From positions 17,479,501-17,543,500 of the forward strand of contig NC_092650.1 in assembly GCF_032118995.1 (NCBI RefSeq): a stretch of DNA of 64,000 nucleotides. Direction: 5' to 3'. The translations under genes were made by a program, and so were the position numbers. This document shows, piece by piece, positions 44,718-64,000 of this stretch. The stretch is from Asterias amurensis. Its lineage: Eukaryota; Echinodermata; Asteroidea; Forcipulatida; Asteriidae. Positions within the stretch are counted from its first letter, which is position 1. Each line of letters opens with the position of its first letter. A model generated the notes under the pieces. It made no database searches. It was not told where the DNA came from and saw only the letters and a program-made list of their open reading frames with translations.

Positions 44718-45688
44718 AGGGACAGTTACAAAAAAAAACATAAGTTGAAAGCCAATTCTTCCCAGACTTCAGCTGAGTCTGGGAGAAGTCATGGTCTTGA
44801 AAGCCCTAGTGGGCTATCTGGAGCATTCTTCTATGGTTTTCTCTTCATGAATATATATATAGAAACGCAACTTGTGCGGGCCCGCTATACTAGCTTTTGC
44901 ATTTTAAGAATCCTGCTGAAACTTGAGTCTGATAAATGTCCGTCCTTTTTGTCTCCTAGATCATTTCATGACGAATAGTTTGAACATTCAAGAGTGATGA
45001 CTCCGTGCAGAATAGCAGCTGGTTTGAAAACTGCTGGAGGTTTCAAAATGATCAGCACAAATATCTGCCAGCCTGTCTATAAATCAAATGTAAGAATGTT
45101 ATTTTAAGATGATTTCAATGATGCATTTTGAGAGTTTACTTTTATTATGTATTCCAAGGAAATATCTGCCAGCCTGTCTACAAATCAAATGTTAAAATTT
45201 TATTTTAAGATGATTTCAATTATGCTTTTCTGATATGTTTTCCGAGGACCGAGCTTGTCCAACAATTTAGCGCAGCAAAAATTGTTGACTGCGCTTATTT
45301 TGTGCACACTGAATGCCAATAACAAGTAGCATATAGTAATTTTTGAGTATTAACTGACGCAGTTTTTGTAGCATTCTGCTCTGCTATACAGGGGTAATCA
45401 TTCACTATATCAGTTTTGTTTCACCTTTCAGAGATATGGATAAGCAGATATTTTTCATAAACCAACGGCAGTGTTGGTTTATGAAAATTATGCCCTTTGT
45501 TAACCTCGCCTTGTTGAATTATGTTTACTTTAAATGCAAAACACTCGGATTTCGGAGAAAAAAAAACATTTGCCTTGCAGGAAGGTTTAACAACAAATAT
45601 ATCAACTTGTGACACTAATACATATCAAAGTTCAAGCAATTAATATCAATCTTGTTTGTTTCATTTTTTGATAGGTTGTTTTTGACAG
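44718..45688. other. Upstream region of the snoRNA host gene, with a tandem pair
   Basis: Two copies of a unit beginning AAATATCTGCCAGCCTGTCTA (about 45058 and 45160; period about 102 bp) are followed by AAATCAAATGT and TTATTTTAAGATGATTTCAAT. The promoter of the host gene should be here, but its start was not identified; host genes often start in a pyrimidine tract. Confidence 0.45.
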
Positions 45689-46017
45689 TAGCGGAAAATG
45701 TCGTCGGAAGCAGCTGTTCTTTGATGTTTGCAAACGACCAACCGATAAATAATCAACATCAGAAATGACAACTCAAAGTAAGAACTTCTTTCATTTAAGA
45801 GTCTTTTTGCATGAAAATGATTCTTGAAAAATAAAGCAAAATAGTTAATGTGGAGTTGACCTGTCCCAGATTAATTAAAAGTGGCACTCTGACTTTGTTG
45901 AGACAGAATCTTGGATTGACTCTAAGATCTTGGTAGGCAACAAAACCACAGGCTTTTATTTTCTTCCGGAGTTTGTGAAGAATGCAACCTTTTCTGCTTG
46001 TTTCCGGCTCATAAGAT

Positions 46018-46113
46018 GTGGTGTTTCAGTGACGATACAAAAGCTCGCCGCTTTGAGCTTTTTGGAGCGCTGAAGACAGTTCTGTTTTTCGAAACGCCTC
46101 CGAGTTTCACCAC
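46018..46113 (+). ncRNA. Box C/D-like RNA candidate, 96 nt, copy a
   Basis: The terminal stem is GTGGTG with CACCAC. The C-box position holds GTGACGA (one off consensus) and the D-box position CCGA. An inner AAGCTC/GAGCTT hairpin follows the C box. It lies in the first intron. The weak boxes suggest it may be a decaying or non-functional copy of the element at 46449. Confidence 0.45.
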
Positions 46114-46224
46114 GATCTTTCAAATAAGAATGAAGTGCCGACGAAAAGGGGTTCAAATCATGGGTCAAAAGGTTGATCTGTTCTAAAATGCAAATTTTGT
46201 TTTCCTGTCTTCCATAATAAATAG

Positions 46225-46282
46225 GTAAATTTCTTGAAGACAAGGTTGGAAATAGTCATCCATGAAAGTTCCTCCTTAAATG
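46225..46282 (+). other. Host-gene exon from the repeated acceptor unit
   Basis: It follows CCATAATAAATAG and ends ATG before GTAAGAG. Its first 20 bases (GTAAATTTCTTGAAGAC) match the exon start at 46783 and the minisatellite between them, so these exons arose by local duplication. Confidence 0.55.
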
Positions 46283-46448
46283 GTAAGAGCCTTTTTTTTT
46301 TTTTTTTCTTGATTATTTGCTAAATGTGTTTTAAACGGGAGAAAAAAATACCACAAACTATTTGGAAAAAAAAATACCACAAACTATTTGGAAAAAAATT
46401 CACTCACTTCTTGCTAGTACTCTGAGACAAAAAATGCGTAGATAAGAT

Positions 46449-46544
46449 GTGGTGTGGCAGTGATGATACAAAAGCTCGCCGCTTTGAGCTTTTTGGAGCG
46501 TTGAAGACATTTCTGTTTTTCGAAACACCTCTGAGTTTCACCAC
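46449..46544 (+). ncRNA. Box C/D snoRNA candidate, 96 nt, copy b
   Basis: Identical layout to the 46018 copy, but with full consensus boxes: C box GTGATGA, D box CTGA, terminal stem GTGGTG/CACCAC. It lies in intron 2. At 96 nt it is longer than the guide snoRNAs nearby. I find no convincing rRNA match upstream of the D box (CGAAACACCT), so its target is unknown. U22, the long orphan C/D RNA of vertebrate UHG, is a possible analogue by position only. Confidence 0.6.
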
Positions 46545-46618
46545 AATCTTTCAAATAAGAATAAGGTCGACCAGTCAAATGGTTGATCTAGTCTTTAAAC
46601 AGAAGTTGGGGGGGGGGG

Positions 46619-46805
46619 TTCTTGTATTCCATGATGAACAAGTATATGTACTCAAAGATAAAAACATGTTTTCTTGTATTGTATGATGAATTGGTTAACT
46701 TCCTCGAAGATTAAACAAAATGTTTTCCATAATGATTAGGTAAATTTCGTCAAAGATAAAAACATGTTTTCTTGTATTCCAGGATGAACGGGTGAATTTC
46801 TTCAA
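46619..46805 (+). repeat. About 50-bp minisatellite carrying the exon acceptor
   Basis: Four imperfect units, each with TTCTTGTATTCCA or TTTTCCATAAT, then GATGAA or GATTAG, AATTTC or ACTTCC, and TCAAAGATAAAAACATG. The last unit supplies the polypyrimidine tract, AG and first bases of the exon at 46783. Confidence 0.75.
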
Positions 46806-47032
46806 AGGGAGATGATGAGATTGATGTGAAAACTTGGTGGCGCTTCCTAACATGGTAAGCCTTCGTTTTGTGTAATATTCAATATTATATGCAAAATGCT
46901 ACAGTATTTGAGTAATATTGACCTGTGGTGTAACTAACAATAGGGTTTTAATCTATATTAAAAAAAAAAGAAATAACTATGAAATCTGTGTGTTTCTCAG
47001 GCGGGTGAGCCAAAAACTTGAAGTATTGTTTG

Positions 47033-47109
47033 TTGGTCTGTGATGAATTAAAATAGACAAGCATATATCTGACAACTTGCTGCGGATGTATATTTTATTC
47101 TGAGACCAA
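47033..47109 (+). ncRNA. SNORD27: U27-like box C/D snoRNA, copy 1
   Basis: Terminal stem TTGGTC/GACCAA, box C GTGATGA (47040-47046), box D' CTGA (47069-47072), C'-like GCGGATG, box D CTGA (47100-47103). The guide ahead of D' is AGACAAGCATAT, complementary to ATATGCTTGTCT near the 5' end of 18S rRNA. Counting five nucleotides from D' puts 2'-O-methylation on 18S A27, the known U27 target. It lies in host intron 3, about 0.4 kb before the next exon. Confidence 0.9.
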
Positions 47110-47718
47110 TGAAAACAATCCAAGGTTTTCCCTTACAACTCTTTGAAATACTCTTCCACTGAACCTTCAGACTTGCTAGACTCGAGCTTCAAAACTGACC
47201 AGAAAAACCACTTGTTCAATCTGAACTTAAAGTATCGCTGAGCTGCCAACTTTTAATGAATCTTCAAAGAGCTCCCTGAAAGTTAACTAATCTTTCCATT
47301 TTCTGATGAACAAATTTGAAAATCTCTTTGGTTCTGGAATATTTTTTCTCCAGTTATGACTAAGTGTGCCACAGTACCTTGTGAAACGGATCTAGTGTTT
47401 CATTAACTTCCAAACCTGTCTTTAAAGTGTTTCCCTTTTAATTCCTTAAACACCACATTGTTGGATAAATGAGAAACTGTTGTCTAATATTCCAGTATGT
47501 TGTATTTTTTAATTGACAGGTACAACAGTTTTGTGCCGTCTGTTTCAGTAACATGTCAAAGCCTTATCAGACACTCCAGGTAAGTTTTTAGTAAGTTTTG
47601 AACTGTTTTCATTTGATTATCTATTGCAATTGATTCCAAAATGAAAAGCTAAAACGGGCTTTACTTCTGCTTGTCAGAATATCATTGTCATGGATTTGAA
47701 ATGGATTCTGAAGAAGAC

Positions 47719-47796
47719 TGGCGAATGATGATCATCGTCCTTCGACTAACTGGATGTCTGATAATTGGCTCTGATGACCTGACGCCTTTCTGAACC
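47719..47796 (+). ncRNA. Box C/D snoRNA candidate, intron 4
   Basis: ATGATGA (47725-47731), CTGA (47758-47761), TGATGAC (47772-47778) and CTGA (47790-47793) are spaced as C, D', C' and D. The terminal stem is weak. Guides ahead of D' (ACTAACTGGATGT) and D (TGACGCCTTT) have no rRNA match that I can name. Confidence 0.45.
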
Positions 47797-48140
47797 TGAT
47801 TTGTTTGTGGTGTGTTTTTCTTTGTCCGAGCACCATGTTGGTGGATATGTGTGCTATTTTAAACTCGAATGTTATTTTCAGTAAGTTACTGAAATCTCAG
47901 ACATTTTAAACCACACTTTATATTTTCCATGTTTAGGATTTGTTCTCGAAACTCCAGAGGGCCTCTGTCATCAATAATGAAGGTAATTACATTCCATCTT
48001 GCTTAGTAAATCCAGGCATGATATTTTTGTACTTGAAGCATTTACAATCAAACTGGTTGCAGTCGCATTTCACAATCAAAACACTGATTTTATCCAAAAA
48101 TGAAGGCAAATTATAATAGGACATGAGAATTAGTGAACCA

Positions 48141-48218
48141 GTACCAATGATGAACCTATTTCAAGACAAGCATATGTCTGATTTAAGACTGAAGACTTTC
48201 AAATGTGTTCTGAGGTAC
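48141..48218 (+). ncRNA. SNORD27: U27-like box C/D snoRNA, copy 2
   Basis: Terminal stem GTACC/GGTAC, box C ATGATGA (48147-48153), D' CTGA (48178-48181), D CTGA (48210-48213). The guide AAGACAAGCATATG again matches the 18S segment CATATGCTTGTCTT and points to A27. Its stem and spacer sequences differ from copy 1, so the duplication is old while the guide is conserved. It lies in host intron 5. Confidence 0.9.
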
Positions 48219-48325
48219 GGTACATCCCATCTTCCTTAGTACTTGGGGAGTGGGATTTCATTTAAAGGGTGTATGTAACTTTTGTAGGAAAGTAAATTTC
48301 ATTTTCCCTTAAATTTGTACCTTTT

Positions 48326-48345
48326 GGGTGGGTGGGTGGGTGGGA
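48326..48345 (+). other. G-quadruplex motif
   Basis: Five GGG runs separated by single T. Such single-base loops favour a very stable parallel quadruplex in the intron RNA or coding-strand DNA. Confidence 0.8.
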
Positions 48346-48674
48346 GGTGATTGTACATGTCCAATCATGTTACACACACCCTTGATTGGTCTGCGAGTTT
48401 TGCAGTTAATGAAAAGAGCACAAAATTGTTGAGTAAAATAATCTATGTGTAAAATTTTCAGCTGTCAAGTAAACTGGAGTTGCAGAAGGAACAAGACTAA
48501 GATGGATCAAAGGTAAATAAGAAAAACTTGTATTAACTAAGTGTCCATGGTGTGTTTTAAACACGAATGTCTTAAATATTCCCTCAGCTCTCCTACTTCA
48601 ATCAATATCAAGCTTTATTGAATAGTTCCCCCGTAAAAAAAGTTGTCATGTTTGGGAACTTTTGAGTTGCATAG

Positions 48675-48749
48675 TGGAGCAGTGATGAGCTATCTAGTCT
48701 CGTTCGTATGATCTACATGATTATACAAATTAACTACTTCTGAGCTCCA
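48675..48749 (+). ncRNA. SNORD28: U28-like box C/D snoRNA
   Basis: Perfect terminal stem TGGAGC/GCTCCA, box C GTGATGA (48682-48688), box D CTGA (48740-48743). The internal guide AGTCTCGTTCGT is complementary to ACGAACGAGACT of 18S rRNA and is followed by ATGA, a non-standard D' box. With ATGA as D', the target is human-equivalent A1390, one base from C1391, the site of vertebrate U28. It lies in host intron 6. snoRNA identity is solid; the exact target base is not. Confidence 0.8.
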
Positions 48750-48954
48750 ACTACTATGTTCTTCCTACATCAGTCCGATTTCAAGTTTTGGTTCCCCAAA
48801 TTGTTAATCAATTGTCTGAAAAGTCTTTTAAAGCCATGTTGGTCAGCCCGGCCTTGTACTCAGTAAATTAATATAGTAACAAGTTAAAAACTTGTTCTTC
48901 AAGGCCAAGTAGCATGGCTCCATCGAACATCCTGCAAAAATCATTGATAATAAT

Positions 48955-49125
48955 TGTACAAGTAAGCCCGTCGGGGCGGAGTGGTCACACACTCCAGAAT
49001 CTAGTGATAAGCAGAGTGTGGGTTCTAGTCCTGGTGTTGATGTATGTGTCCTTGCCCAAGACACTCGACCATTATTGCCTCGTCCTTTTGACGGGACATG
49101 AATAGCTTTTGATTGATCCTGCAAG
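48955..49125 (+). mobile_element. tRNA-headed SINE in host intron 6
   Basis: A-box region GGGGCGGAGTGGTCACAC, B box GTGGGTTCTAGTCCTGG, then a body with CCAAGACACT, CCATTATTGCCTCGTCC and TTTTGACGGGAC. The body matches that of the SINE at 27375. Confidence 0.7.
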
Positions 49126-49444
49126 TTGTGTAAAATGGACGTAGACAAACAGAATAACAAAAACAAAATCTGCAGCAGAACTGTGAAGTTGATTTTAGCA
49201 GTAACTTTTTTCATCTCCTAACAATGTTTATTCATTTCAGGGAGTCCTGTGCATCAATAATCGCCTTAAATCATCAAGTCTCGCTTAGCTTTCCTTTGGA
49301 AGGAAGTTTCATTGCCAAAGATCTCCACTTTAAGGTAACAATCTCTCAGAACGGATTACTTTAACAGAACATGGATGATAGTCCAGTTTTTCAAATAGTT
49401 TGGCCCTTGGGAAAAATGTAAAAAAATGTGATTGAAAAGCCTGA

Positions 49445-49560
49445 AAAGTGAAAAATTGCAAAGGTCTTGGGTTTGAGTCCCACCCGAGTAATATGCCTGT
49501 GACTTTTTTTTACACCGAACTAGTGTAAGTACTGAGTATACAGTGCTAACACACATCCGT
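49445..49560 (+). mobile_element. SINE fragment, family of 24665
   Basis: It keeps the B-box end (GCAAAGGTCTTGGGTTTGAGTC), CCCGAGTAATATGC and TACTGAGTATACAGTG, but has lost the A-box half. Confidence 0.6.
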
Positions 49561-49674
49561 GTATATGGGTTTTCATAATGAATAATCCTGATAAGTCCGT
49601 GGTATTCCTGTAAGGTCTGTTGAAGCCTACACCATGTTGCTCAGACCTTGTACTTTTTAAGGGCCAAAAATGAG

Positions 49675-49775
49675 GCATCAGGTCTGGAATTCTCGGCCTT
49701 GGTGCCCTTACACCAAATTCCCATAGGCTTAAAAGATTTTCCAATGGCCTTGCCCTCTCAAAGATGAAATTCCAG
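49675..49775 (+). repeat. Dispersed GGCCTTGGTGCCC repeat
   Basis: CGGCCTTGGTGCCCTTAC, then ATGGCCTTGCCCTCTCAAAG and ATTCCAGGCCTG. It shares these blocks with 50305-50420 and, more distantly, 21978-22070. Class unknown. Confidence 0.6.
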
Positions 49776-49995
49776 GCCTGAGGCATGTGAAAAGAAGTCA
49801 TTTTCTGGGTATAGACCTTTCGCTGAGACCAAACGAAGAAAATATACACCACCGCCCACAACTTTCGGTCAGTGGTAGGTCTTCTTTTACTGTGATGGTG
49901 TTTTTTTTTTGTTTTTTTTTGGGGGGGGGTGCTCGCATTAATTGTTGGAGCTTAAGAACAGCCCGCAAATGATGATCATTTCATAGACCTGTTCT

Positions 49996-50056
49996 TAAAA
50001 TCAATGATGATTTATTTTCCTGATGTGGTGACTGGTTCTAAGCTCCTGAAAACAAC
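49996..50056 (+). ncRNA. Weak box C/D candidate, intron 7
   Basis: ATGATGA (50004-50010) and CTGA (50046-50049) are separated by about 35 nt. The bases ahead of CTGA (ACTGGTTCTAAG) could pair with the CUUAGAACUGGU segment of 28S rRNA using two G-U pairs, but the predicted base is not a methylation site I know. There is no clear terminal stem. Confidence 0.3.
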
Positions 50057-50304
50057 TGTCGGTATTATTCGGGAGATGGGGTTAATCGGAAGAAAACAAA
50101 AGAAGCATTCTAAAACAAAGCCCATTAATTCCTTTCTCAGATAACATCTTTGCTGGCTGAACTCGGCTTTGGTTTCTTCCACGTGGTAAGTATTTAGCTC
50201 TGGCTTTGTATTTCTTTTATGTTTTCATGTAAGCCCTTTTCATACTGCAGAACAATGCACTGGAAATAAACGCAAGACAATTTCTGCAAATTTTATCTAC
50301 CCCG

Positions 50305-50420
50305 TTTCACTGGTCTTGGCCTTGGTGCCCCTTCAAAAATTTCCATAGACTTAAAGATGTAAGTGCCCTTTTCAAAATGAAAATGGCCTTGCCCTCTCAA
50401 AGATGAAACTACAGGCCTGG
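50305..50420 (+). repeat. Dispersed GGCCTTGGTGCCC repeat, second copy
   Basis: CTTGGCCTTGGTGCCCC, TTTCCATAGACTTAAAGAT, ATGGCCTTGCCCTCTCAAAG and CTACAGGCCTGG in order. Confidence 0.6.
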
Positions 50421-50664
50421 GTTAGTGATTCCAGGGGAACAGCAATTCCACAGAAGTTTTCTTTTTCCTGGGTTTGCAAGCAATTCAAAGTGAAAATGTA
50501 AACTACATATTCCCAGGGTTTTTATGGTGTAATTTCTCTAGTTTGAAAAGGGCTTTACTCTGGGAATGCAGGGACTTCCTGTGTTGTACTCCAGGGTGAT
50601 GGGGAGCAAGTATGGTTGGTAGAAGATTGCCAAGAGCAAAATGTTCTCCACCCACTGTACTGCT

Positions 50665-50737
50665 GGTAGACAATGATGAGTTATTATACCGCCCCAGTCT
50701 GATTTCTGTGACTGATTGGTTAACTTGCTGAGTTGCC
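50665..50737 (+). ncRNA. SNORD31: U31-like box C/D snoRNA, copy 1
   Basis: Box C ATGATGA (50673-50679), D' CTGA (50699-50702), C' TGACTGA (50709-50715), D CTGA (50728-50731). The guide ATACCGCCCCAGT pairs with 28S ACTGGGGCGGTA, the ribosomal P-loop. The fifth base from D' selects the second G of the GGGG run, equivalent to E. coli Gm2251. From memory this is the vertebrate U31 / yeast snR67 site. It lies in host intron 8. Confidence 0.85.
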
Positions 50738-51196
50738 CTCGCCCACCCCTCCCCCGAAAACACAAATAAATAAATTAACACAAGTGAAATAGGTTGACTT
50801 AAGGTTAAAACAATCTGGTTGTAAGGAGATCGCCAAGACTGGCAGCTAGAAAATATTGTACGAGGACAGCAAAAGAAAAGAAAATTTTGAGCATTATTTT
50901 GCGAGTTAAGAATGAGTTCTTCATAAGCAGATGACCTCCTTACAGAAGTCTGAATTATGAAAGTCAACCAAATCTTTGGGAAAGGGAAGATATGAAAAAA
51001 ATTATTTAAAATCAGTCCCTTATTTATTCTTGTTCCTCTCCACAGATTTCATCATTTGGTTGCTGCTGAACCGTCTTTGTTTTCCTTTACGCAGTAAGTA
51101 TTGAGCTCTGTTGAAGCTCGTTGTATTCCTGGGTGAAGGGAAGCAACTATGGTTGGTTCACATTTGCTATGAGCAAATATTTTCCATCGTACTGCT

Positions 51197-51269
51197 GGTT
51201 GACAATGATGAGTTAATATACCGCCCCAGTCTGATTGCTGTGACTGATTGGTTAACTTGCTGAGTTGCC
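51197..51269 (+). ncRNA. SNORD31: U31-like box C/D snoRNA, copy 2
   Basis: C ATGATGA (51205-51211), D' CTGA (51231-51234), C' TGACTGA (51241-51247), D CTGA (51260-51263). The guide is the same as copy 1, in host intron 9. The flanking GGTTGAC/GTTGCC can form a short, imperfect terminal stem. Confidence 0.85.
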
Positions 51270-51736
51270 TTCACCCTTATCCCACCGCTCCCCAAAAATA
51301 CACAAATAAATAAATTAACACAAGTGAAATGGGTTGACTTTAACTTATTACAGTCTGGTTCTATGGTATGGAGATCGCTAAGCCTGGCTAAAAGGAACAA
51401 GCCTAAACGAGGACGGCAAAACAAAAGAAACTCTTGAGCATGGAATTTTTGACTTCAGAATTGACTCTTTTTTTAGGCACCCACCTAGCAGTGGTCTTTA
51501 TTACAAGAGTCAACTGCATCTCGGGAAAGCGACGATTAAAAAAAAAATGTACCAGTCATCAACTTGTTCATGTTCGTCTCCACAGATTTCATCATTTGGT
51601 TGCTGCTGAACCGTATTTGTTTTCCTTCACGCAGTAAGTATTGAGCTCTCTTAAAACTCATTATATTCCTTGGTGATGGGAAGCAACTATGGTTGGTTTA
51701 CATTTGCTATGAGCAAATATTCTCCATCCTACTGCT

Positions 51737-51809
51737 GGTAGACAATGATGAGTTAATATACCGCCCCAGTCTGATTGCTGTGACTGATTGGTTAACTTGC
51801 TGAGTTGCC
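51737..51809 (+). ncRNA. SNORD31: U31-like box C/D snoRNA, copy 3
   Basis: It lies 540 bp after copy 2 and is almost identical to it, in host intron 10. All four boxes and the ACCGCCCCAGT guide are intact. Confidence 0.85.
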
Positions 51810-51825
51810 TAAACCCTCATCCAAA

Positions 51826-51987
51826 CTTGATAGAGCTGTACAACGAAATTATGTTAACGTAAAAATGTTGCCAGCTAAATTACCATTTCACACGTAGAAT
51901 CTGTGACTGGTATCCATAATCCTGCTTATTGCTGCTTAGCAGAAAGTTTCAAAGCAATGTTTTTTTAGCTTTATGACACTGGGCCCT
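51826..51987. mobile_element. PD MITE fragment in host intron 10
   Basis: The left end is decayed (AAACTTGATAGAGCTG); the right is TTTATGACACTGGGCCC. The inner CTTAGCAGAAAG and GTGACTGGTATCC are present. It lies just after the U31-like copy 3. Confidence 0.6.
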
Positions 51988-52325
51988 GCTAGTTGACCCT
52001 TGTGAATATAGAAATCTGTTACAGTAAGTTAAAAATGAAAGAGCCGAGTAAGTTGAATTTGTAGTAGATATCTTTAGAAATGGAGGACAAATTAACGCAG
52101 CATTGAGTAACAACTTTCTCTTTTGTCCTCACCACAGGTATCGTCTTTACGAAGCTGCGGATTGCGGAACTCTAAAAGCGTTTTCTTCTGGTAAGCATTT
52201 TCCTCTGGCTGCATTTCCATTGACATGTTGAACATGCTGACTTTCTCTGTTAAACTCCTGTGTGAAGAGAAGCAACTATGGTTGGTTCACATTTGCTATG
52301 AGCAAATATTTTCCACTGTACTGCT

Positions 52326-52398
52326 GGTAGACAATGATGAGTTAATATACCGCCCCAGTCTGATTTCTGTGACTGATTGGTTAACTTGCTGAGTTGCC
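52326..52398 (+). ncRNA. SNORD31: U31-like box C/D snoRNA, copy 4
   Basis: C ATGATGA (52334-52340), D' CTGA (52360-52363), C' TGACTGA (52370-52376), D CTGA (52389-52392), in the last intron. It shares TTTCTGTGACTGA with copy 1 and TTAATATACC with copies 2 and 3, so it is intermediate. Confidence 0.85.
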
Positions 52399-52900
52399 TA
52401 AACCCGAAGTCCTAGAAGTAAAATGTCTATAAAACTTAACTAAAGAAAGCTAACGTACCTATTTGAGTGCAGAGTACCGCCTCATTGGTACTTGTAAACT
52501 GAATAGTATAAGTTTGTTTTGTCCTTTGTTCATGCATTTGACATCACTAGTAAAAAGTTTTAACTCTCTCTCTCTACAGGTTGACGCACAATTGGAGAAA
52601 GTTCATGCTGAAAGAAACATTTGGTGGATTCAACTTGTAACCTGTGAAAATTTCATTTCAAAAGGTGGTTGCGTTTGTGATTTATCATCGAAAATCCTAA
52701 TTGAATGTGCCCTGCAGGAAGGAAGATTTAAAATTGGAAAACACAATCTAAGAGGCATTACTGTCCAGTTAGTCTTTTGGTGTTCAAATTTCAGGGAATG
52801 AAAACTTTTTAAAGCAAGATGAGTCTCAAAATCTTTGTACTATCCTATGGAAAACTGCTTCACTTCGAAGTTCTTAGAATCAAGTTTTTGTTGACATGTT

Positions 52901-53519: not shown

Positions 53520-54199
53520 GAGTTGGTTCACCAAACACGTACATCGACTTCAATGGTATCACAAAATTCAAAACCCATTAGAGGATGCTTGGTGTAATCG
53601 CCATAGCAGTAGAGAAATGCTGGGCATAATTATTGGCAATTTGTTAATTATAATTGGTTTATTTATTTAAAAAAGTTGATGTTTGGTTGTGCTTTCGAAT
53701 GATGGACTTTGGTTTTTGTGGAGTTAAAAACTTGATTCATACAGATTTAATTTAATCCTTTCATTGGGATTGTTTCTATCAGGTAGTCACAAATGTGGCT
53801 TGCAAAATGCTTCAAAAGGGTAGAATTTAGGCACTGACAATTTTGATAAGTTCATTTCAATTATAAATTTTACCCCACAATGATATAATTTTAAAAAAAA
53901 TTTCCTCTCAATTTTATTATTTTGCTAAAATTAGACAGACGACAAGTAGTTGTTTTAAAAATAAATCTAACCAATTTTATTTCACTTGTTTCTCAAATAT
54001 CTTCTTTTTTTTTGTCTGATCTTATCCTTTCCTCTCCTGTACTTGGTTTAACTACATGTATTGGTCAATAATAATAACTGATAAAGAATCGCATGTACAT
54101 GTATTTGAGTTGAAATTCTTTTTAGTGGCTTTTGGCAATTTTAGTAAGCTATTTAATCTCCAGGTGATCTATCCTTTTTGATCGAAGGAGACCGAAACT
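53520..54199. other. AT-rich spacer between host gene and next gene
   Basis: No gene seen. AATAAA occurs at about 53960, a possible but distant poly-A signal for the snoRNA host transcript. Confidence 0.4.
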
Positions 54200-62974: not shown

Positions 62975-63336
62975 TAACAAATATTTTTTACCAAAACAAT
63001 TGGTGCGGCCTCTAAAATCGGGGCGGGCGGGGACGAGTAACATGTCATTTATTTTATTCGGTAACTAAGTGTAAGTTGGAAATGTGCGCATGTGGTAAAT
63101 ACGAAGACAGAGTTCTTTAGCCTGGGCCCAATTTAAAAAAGCCGAGGATAATTGAGCATTACTTGTTGTGATTTATCATGCGCTCCATCAAAATGCACGT
63201 TTCTTTTTACCAAAAATGTACCTCAACTGACAACAGGTTCCTTGTATGCGGATACTGGGCTAAGTTATTTGGTGTCGTACATTATTATTTTTTGGTATTA
63301 ATTTTGCATTTTTCACATTTTTTTTTATGTCTTCAG
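62975..63336. other. Flank and acceptor tract of the terminal exon
   Basis: Contains a PD end fragment (GGGCCCAATTTAAAAAAGCC, about 63125-63144). The end, 63290-63336, is a T-rich tract leading to TGTCTTCAG, a good splice acceptor. Confidence 0.5.
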
Positions 63337-64000
63337 CTGATATCTCCAGTCCCATCAGTGTCTTGTTAGAGTACATTCCAGGGGTAGGATCACTGTATCA
63401 AGCATCGCGCACCTTCGTTAACTCCCTGCAGTACAGCAATGATTTAGCCGTCAACCCCGTCGCATTGAGCATCATCGGGGGCACCGTTAAAGATTTTCTT
63501 CATTTCAACAATATCCACGAGGAAGGTGTAGTAGTCACTGTCCACTCCCTCTTTGAGAATTTGACCAGGGATGCTTTCGGTCGCATCCTTGACACTTTGG
63601 AGGGGCACATGGCAAACCGGGAGAAAGTTGAGTCAGTTGTGCGACGTTATCTTAGAGTGATCAACCTTAGTAAGAAGTGTTTCCTCTTGGTGCACCATTT
63701 GGAGGAAAACGACCCATTCCACAAGAGCTTCCAAGATAACAGAGTAAGGCTTGCAAAGTATGCCTTGTCTAAGGGTGCGGTTTACAATGGCCTTATTTCT
63801 TATGATAGATACGCAGACAAATCGTTAATTACTGTAAGCGTCCCACTTGGCTTCAAGGAAGGGGCCCCGGTTACGGTCTCATGGAAACTTGACCAAACTT
63901 GGGCTGGTAAGCAAAATGTTATCGTCACAACAAAGGGGACCTTTGGAAAGTGTAATATCAACTCTTCAAATCCAGACCAGCAGTCGGTTGAGATTGAAAT
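63337..64000 (+). CDS. Partial gene of unknown function, long internal exon
   Basis: After the acceptor TGTCTTCAG a frame stays open for 221 codons to the end of the window. It starts DISSPISVLLEYIPGVGSLY, then QASRTFVNSLQYSNDLAVNP and VALSIIGGTVKDFLHFNNIH. GC content and codon choice rise sharply above the flanks, as expected for real coding DNA. The exon begins at codon position 2, so an upstream coding exon is required; none is evident in the 3 kb before it. The middle looks helical (FENLTRDAFGRILDTLEGH), the end more strand-like (SLITVSVPLGFKEGAPVTVS). No family is recognised. Confidence 0.75.

Follow-up and report, generated by a model that had tools for sequence, protein, structure and literature searches.

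A candidate UHG-type snoRNA host gene in the starfish Asterias amurensis

The + strand at positions 45690-52900 of the window, the whole stretch of 64,000 nucleotides of Asterias amurensis DNA that we analysed, very probably holds a UHG-type host gene, itself non-coding, for intronic snoRNAs. In humans, the cargo of UHG consists of U22 and U25-U31 (PMC7277114; PMC6466398 Table 3), and the assignment follows from the three or four of these cargo types that the starfish locus shares. Box C and D motifs, terminal stems, guide matches, and one RNA in each predicted intron are all present, and the predicted exons carry no open reading frame (ORF) beyond chance.

Results

The small exons, GT-AG borders, and intronic box C/D RNAs at the core of the original prediction proved to be real and to lie where it had placed them. 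The + strand of 45690-52900 resolves into 12 predicted exons and 11 GT-AG introns with one box C/D RNA in each (11/11), a tally that is not independent of the selection of the introns, since these were picked by eye and then refined by splice scores; all 11 start with GTAA and end with AG. Putative exon 1 (45690-45777), whose 5' start is the placement of the original prediction, ends at the donor GTAAGAAC at 45778. As candidates for a 5' TOP start, which UHG/SNHG1 has together with an NMD-sensitive spliced RNA, the only pyrimidine runs within 45401-45780 lie at 45424 and 45493. Putative exon 2 (46225-46282; donor 8.4) has a weak acceptor, AATAG, outside the set scoring >7.5, and is followed on the same strand by predicted exons 3 (46783-46854; acceptor 11.5, donor 9.1), 4 (47520-47579; acceptor 6.5, donor 12.8), 5 (47937-47982; AG and GTAA borders), 6 (48462-48512; donor 7.7, AG/GTAA borders), 7 (49241-49334; acceptor 8.7), 8 (50141-50185; acceptor 9.0, donor 9.8), 9 (51046-51093; acceptor 11.9, donor 6.2), 10 (51586-51633; acceptor 8.4), and 11 (52138-52190; acceptor 11.0, donor 9.9). 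Exon 10 is a copy of exon 9 and lies inside a 270-nt repeat (91%). The beginning of the putative last exon (52580-52900, +; acceptor 14.8) closes the model; its 3' end is not fixed by 52900, and the first AATAAA 3' of its acceptor is found at 53960. Besides the acceptor of exon 2, some donors also gave weak splice signals. Using a simple splice matrix with a fixed threshold, we obtained six separate exon-like pairs on the + strand of the locus and one on the - strand; five of the six match model exons, and the sixth (50251-50358) lies outside the model. Eight stretches of 7.9 kb from the window returned 0-5 such pairs on the + strand and 0-2 on the - strand, the stretches with 4 and 5 + pairs being those that overlap the locus and the next highest having 3.

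A blind scan for TGATGA followed by CTGA 45-100 nt on, with a flanking stem score of at least 9, detected nine box C/D candidates on the + strand of 45690-52680. The remaining ~57 kb gave one more on that strand, and the - strand gave none anywhere in the window. The scan skips U31b (weak stem) and S1a (TGACGA and CCGA boxes), which brings the total to 11 box C/D RNAs; C box, D box, and terminal stem were thus recovered blindly in 9/11, U31b was found via Rfam, and S1a has altered boxes. An antisense element that sets an rRNA methylation site opposite the fifth base upstream of D or D' is present in 8/11 (two U27, the U25-like RNA, the A1383 guide, and four U31), and S1a, S1b, and X (3/11) yielded no convincing rRNA site in searches for which the 28S was partly available. 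With this genome's own 18S as the target, the + strand of the locus contains 409 sites resembling box D, of which 4 reached an 18S match score of at least 12, compared with 4 of 5725 on both strands of the rest of the window (Fisher p 0.001). The 11 RNAs lie on a single strand. Their folding z fell below -2 in three, and fold energy is not diagnostic for these RNAs.

Both U27 copies, U27a in intron 3 (47030-47112, +; 45.9 bits; fold z -2.97) and U27b in intron 5 (48141-48218, +; 40.5 bits), score below the SNORD27 (RF00086) gathering cut-off of 52, and they are the best SNORD27 matches genome-wide. Each contains a guide (12 nt in U27a, 13 nt in U27b) that addresses the equivalent of A27 in this genome's own 18S, as had been proposed. 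Among the known types, only U31 passes its Rfam cut-off: U31a in intron 8 (50666-50736; 54.6 bits), U31b in intron 9 (51198-51269; 58.3 bits), U31c in intron 10 (51738-51808; 54.8 bits), and U31d in intron 11 (52327-52397; 55.3 bits), all on the + strand, lie above the SNORD31 (RF00089) gathering value of 40. These four were the only SNORD31 copies in the genome-wide Rfam searches, which score best candidates only. The copies are 94-99% alike, and the sequence 11-95 nt downstream of them is 45-78% alike. All four U31 guides fit the 28S P-loop under the fifth-nucleotide rule, which agrees with the P-loop match originally claimed; a P-loop query gave no match in this genome, whose 28S sequence is N from 4713 on in the copy used, and pattern searches for 28S in viral and genome contig collections returned no match.

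The RNA in intron 6 (48676-48748, +), closed by a TGGAGC/GCTCCA stem, had been taken for U28, and this name had to be withdrawn because its guide addresses 18S A1383 rather than C1391, the target base that SNORD28 needs. The 12-nt guide pairs with 18S ACGAACGAGACT; counting back from a D'-like ATGA, the fifth position falls on A1383. Published tables assign 18S C1391 to U28, 28S A3804 and 18S 1383 (printed C1383) to U30 (PMC6466398 Table 3), and A1383 to RF00338, printed snR53 (PMC3511168 table); the A1383 target is common to SNORD53/snoZ43 and the starfish RNA. The same guide would also fit the second U30 target, 28S A3804, through a 12-nt match with two G-U pairs to a piece of human 28S. U30 or SNORD53, which we take to be the RF00338/snR53 family, would suit this RNA, the two not being separable here; human SNORD53 sits in another host. 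The best Rfam match was SNORD33 (29.4 bits, cut-off 44), and SNORD30 (RF00088) gave no match genome-wide, this locus included. The A1383-guide pattern occurs four times in the genome, and only the window copy has a D box and a stem above 7.5 (16).

Intron 7 contains a U25-like RNA (49963-50030, +) with a 13-nt guide (one G-U) to the equivalent of 18S G1490, a D' box CTTA, an outer stem spanning 49947-50046, and a fold z of -2.70. This RNA was overlooked in the original prediction. It reaches 22.5 bits for SNORD82 (cut-off 43) and 21.8 for SNORD25 (RF00054; cut-off 39); the six genome-wide SNORD25 matches all lie outside the locus with E above 2. Ten genome matches to the G1490-guide pattern were found, with D box and stem above 7.5 in the window copy only (11.5). 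The orphans comprise two types in three copies: S1a in intron 1 (46017-46107, +), which is box C/D-like and has a flanking stem in its predicted fold; S1b in intron 2 (46448-46545, +; C at 46461, D at 46531, stem score 20), which shares a 126-nt block with S1a at 92% identity; and X in intron 4 (47720-47786, +; C at 47726, D at 47779, GGCG/CGCC stem). No convincing S1 or X target emerged from 18S, from the 5' portion of 28S, from pieces of human 28S, or from E. coli 23S.

Searches of the locus for U26, U28, and U29 found none of them. Genome-wide, U26 was not found (four matches, best E 1.4), and the two pattern matches to U28 both have no CTGA box in range. The U29-like RNAs lie on another contig (C12) in an array where 11 RNAs carry the U29 guide. 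An echinoderm origin of the genome is plausible from contig 23 (16,427 bp), whose first 9,900 bases, translated with table 9, yield mitochondrial proteins identified by eye; cox1 is on one strand and nad1- and nad2-like frames are on the other, in what seems an asteroid-like layout.

Discussion

The original prediction had named U27, U28, and U31 as intronic RNAs of vertebrate UHG, and the human cargo indeed includes all three (PMC7277114). Like vertebrate UHG/SNHG1, the starfish locus has no clear coding capacity, contains box C/D RNAs only, and carries one per intron, with U31, U27, a U25-like RNA, and probably U30 common to both. It differs in having four U31, two U27, and the orphan types S1 and X, in placing U25 between the U30-type RNA and U31 instead of first, and in the three types that our locus searches did not find (U26, U28, and U29). 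The succession U27, U30-type, U31 is presumably the order of human UHG, with U25 out of order.

We consider it somewhat probable that the cargo shared with human UHG/SNHG1 reflects common descent from one ancestral host, with U31 and U27 duplicated and other cargo gained and lost since then; this is the best reading and an unproved one. A linkage older than the echinoderm-chordate split is accordingly plausible; the window cannot prove its antiquity, because snoRNAs switch hosts and because U29-like RNAs lie elsewhere in this genome. A non-coding host that served the same function may instead have captured mobile snoRNAs independently, some of them coinciding with vertebrate UHG by chance. We regard such independent assembly as a possible but rather unlikely origin. 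The mobility of snoRNAs between hosts and the fluid membership of host genes (PMC3511168) are consistent with it, as are the 3/11 RNAs of two types that have no assigned family or target, the U29-like array on another contig, and the flanks: no synteny with human SNHG1 was seen among the nine ORFs downstream of the gene, none of which was recognisable or had a Pfam match above cut-off (of 361 window frames of at least 55 aa), two giving weak matches only in a PDB comparison. However, the succession U27, U30-type, U31 in the presumed human order, U25 excepted, argues against it, and chance sharing is unlikely: under random sampling from 100 C/D types, an assumed pool size, an overlap of at least four of the six types with the eight human ones has p 0.00025 and an overlap of at least three has p 0.006, the values for an assumed pool of 60 being 0.0019 and 0.027.

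It is improbable that the exons are misdrawn here and belong to a protein-coding gene with the snoRNAs in its introns. The exon ends are predicted, the length of 6/10 internal exons, including exons 9 and 10, is divisible by three, and an ORF of 57 aa, the longest across the predicted exons, extends from exon 6 to within exon 9, but 76 of 300 shuffles matched this length. Transcription of each RNA from its own promoter is very improbable. Up to 59 snoRNA genes of C. elegans are said to be polymerase III-transcribed (PMC7277114), but all 11 starfish RNAs lie on one strand and singly between GT-AG borders, although some of these borders are weak.

Other host genes offer instructive comparisons with the UHG-type locus. 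In fly Uhg1, U27, U29, and U31 are said to be present in several copies each, as reportedly described by Tycowski and Steitz in 2001. The linkage may therefore have been recognised before, and the age given to it in the original prediction perhaps understates what is already known. Drosophila Uhg1 resembles the starfish locus in being a snoRNA host gene, said to encode 16 snoRNAs and no other potentially growth-relevant transcript (PMC4430873). In the starfish, unlike the presumed fly arrangement, the U29-like RNAs lie on another contig. Hosts of the gas5 type are likewise non-coding and contain snoRNAs duplicated within the gene (PMC2653536), and excerpts of that chicken study do not mention U27, U30, or U31. 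No published echinoderm UHG appeared among the matches listed in the open-licence literature. The cargo of gas5-like hosts presumably differs from that of the starfish locus.

Judging from the sequence, the locus would be transcribed by RNA polymerase II into an RNA of ~12 exons and spliced, and each of the 11 excised introns, once debranched, would be trimmed down to a single box C/D RNA bound by box C/D proteins, while the exons, probably without a protein product, would be discarded. The mature RNAs would guide 2'-O-methylation of 18S at A27 (both U27 copies), G1490 (the U25-like RNA), and A1383 (the U30-type RNA, perhaps also acting on 28S A3804), and the four U31 copies would guide that of the 28S P-loop (human G4166, E. 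coli G2251). The broader proposal, on which we are evenly divided, is that one ancestral UHG existed before the bilaterian split and was kept for more than half a billion years, its identity residing in the kind and order of its cargo (U27, U30-type, U31) while exons, flanks, and some cargo turned over. The presence of three or four human UHG types, out of eight, in an animal so far from vertebrates would represent stable linkage without conserved exons, and the starfish locus would serve as an outgroup for deciding which UHG cargo is ancestral. The locus also shows the growth of a host gene via duplicated snoRNA-bearing introns.

Gene model and box C/D RNAs

The putative snoRNA host gene at 45690-52900 (+) was drawn with 12 predicted exons, and all 11 of its introns start with GTAA, end in AG and carry one box C/D RNA apiece, in keeping with the original prediction of about twelve small GT-AG exons. 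Because these introns were chosen by eye together with splice scores, the independent evidence comes from two scans. When the window was scanned blindly for the TGATGA and CTGA boxes plus an enclosing stem, nine candidates fell in the locus and one on the rest of the + strand, with none on the - strand; the weak stem of U31b and the changed C and D boxes of S1a kept these two from being picked up. A splice-matrix scan returned six separate exon-like pairs on the + strand of the locus and one on the - strand; five of the six are model exons and the remaining pair (50251-50358) lies outside the model, while among the eight window stretches scanned, one without contact to the locus has three pairs on the + strand. 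The acceptor of predicted exon 2 is weak, and both gene ends (5' and 3') are putative, the first AATAAA past the last acceptor standing at 53960. The joined exons contain no ORF exceeding chance expectation, the longest (57 aa) being equalled in 76 of 300 shuffles, which makes it improbable that the snoRNAs sit within introns of a protein-coding gene, although exon lengths do not argue against such a gene (6 of 10 internal predicted exons are multiples of three).

Elsewhere in the window, 24677-24748 matches a tRNA family above the Rfam cut-off (38.1 bits; no ARAGORN call), 40658-40706 matches mir-3036 weakly (34.1 bits; cut-off 70), and 63264-63998, near the window edge, is a 245-codon stop-free frame with no Pfam match above cut-off. 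On contig 23 (16,427 bp) of the same genome, the initial 9,900 bases, translated with table 9, encode mitochondrial proteins, and nad1- and nad2-like frames run on the strand opposite to cox1; the starfish assignment is based on this asteroid-like arrangement together with the earlier echinoderm reading.

Identity of the intronic RNAs

The locus holds six cargo types: S1, U27, X (47720-47786, intron 4), a guide to 18S A1383, a U25-like RNA and U31. The four U31 RNAs (introns 8-11) exceed the Rfam cut-off for SNORD31, and the genome search (491.5 Mb, 23 contigs) gave no further copy at E up to 0.001, such counts being lower bounds. Their guide places a base equivalent to G2251 of E. coli 23S, in the P-loop, and fits human 28S. 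The copies share 94-99% identity, compared with 45-78% at 11-95 nt downstream and 35-88% at 97-181 nt upstream; a 270-nt exon-intron repeat (91% identity) contains U31b and U31c. The ~95 nt directly 5' of each U31 (50571-50665, 51103-51197, 51643-51737, 52232-52326) are 71-89% alike across the four introns, and the preceding stretch 35-51%, save U31b vs U31c (88%). S1a (46017-46107) and S1b (46448-46545) share a 126-nt block of 92% identity, in which S1a has a T to C change in each of its boxes, C (TGACGA) and D (CCGA); these changes may reflect decay or paired change.

Guides were compared with 18S from the same genome, with human site numbers transferred through sequence context instead of an alignment to human 18S. 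Of the 409 box-like sites on the locus + strand, 4 have a match scoring at least 12, compared with 4 of 5725 in the rest of the window. Around the A27 equivalent, U27a (47030-47112) and U27b (48141-48218) pair over 12 and 13 nt; both fall under the Rfam cut-off and rank as the top two among 10 SNORD27 genome matches. U27a pairs only from guide position 3, and also matches SNORD121A (35.4 bits; cut-off 44). The RNA at 49963-50030 pairs over 13 nt (one G-U) such that the base five positions ahead of its CTTA box faces the G1490 equivalent, which makes it U25-like. The RNA at 48676-48748 pairs over 12 nt, placing the A1383 equivalent ahead of ATGA, and would pair over 12 nt (two G-U) with the A3804 site of human 28S.

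For SNHG1-hosted guides, Table 3 of PMC6466398 lists U25 at G1490, U27 at A27, U28 at C1391, U31 at G4166, and U30 at 28S A3804 and 18S 1383 (printed C1383). The predicted A27 and P-loop targets held. The U28 reading of 48676-48748 is ruled out, its guide lying at A1383 and the listed U28 site at C1391. U30 fits, and this RNA is probably of U30 type; a table in PMC3511168 assigns A1383 to RF00338 (printed snR53), an alternative that Rfam scores do not separate (snoU30 20.1, snoZ43 20.6, SNORD33 best at 29.4 bits; all under cut-off). Genome-wide, the A1383 and G1490 guide patterns have 4 and 10 matches; the window copies have a D box and stem scores of 16 and 11.5, and the other 12 matches show CTGA within range in four, with stem scores of 5 to 7.5. 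The Rfam model of SNORD30 found no match in the genome and that of SNORD25 six outside the locus, every E above 2. Both assignments rest on guides and context.

Comparison with UHG and descent

According to PMC7277114, the snoRNAs of human UHG are U22 and U25-U31, every one of them of box C/D type, and NMD degrades the spliced host transcript; fly Uhg1 encodes 16 snoRNAs (PMC4430873). The starfish gene most likely works by analogy with UHG: polymerase II would transcribe it, splicing would release one RNP per intron, box C/D proteins would methylate rRNA, and the exons would be thrown away. Judged from sequence, three of the six cargo types can be assigned to UHG: U31 firmly, and U27 and U25 through their guides and context. 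The U30-type RNA is probably a fourth. If the pool is assumed to hold 100 types, sharing at least three by chance has p 0.006 and sharing at least four p 0.00025; for 60 types the values are 0.027 and 0.0019. The human order is U25-U26-U27-U28-U29-U30-U31-U22, with which U27, the U30-type RNA and U31 are collinear and U25 out of line.

U29 is probably housed in a separate array. A SNORD29 search (E up to 10) gave 21 genome matches, all under cut-off. Contig C12 holds 11 of them, clustered at 7.91-7.93 Mb, and the other 10 are spread across ten contigs. In 39.6 kb around the C12 group, all 19 C/D candidates (7907.8-7931.7 kb) lie on the - strand; 13 of them match SNORD29 (28.0-39.1 bits; cut-off 48), and most others are related among themselves. 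Eleven contain CCTAGCTCACT. This guide pairs over 13 nt (one G-U) with a piece of human 28S near the U29 site, and over 11 nt with position 2576 of E. coli 23S. U26 was not found in the genome search, a genome pattern search for U28 gave no convincing match, and U22 was sought solely by Rfam scans of the window.

Nine downstream ORFs scanned for synteny showed no recognisable family. The proposal that the linkage predates the echinoderm-chordate split remains the best reading. The cargo of fly Uhg1 was reportedly described by Tycowski and Steitz in 2001 as including U27, U29 and U31. In that case a bilaterian linkage had been recognised before, and the starfish gene would be a further example of a known gene type.
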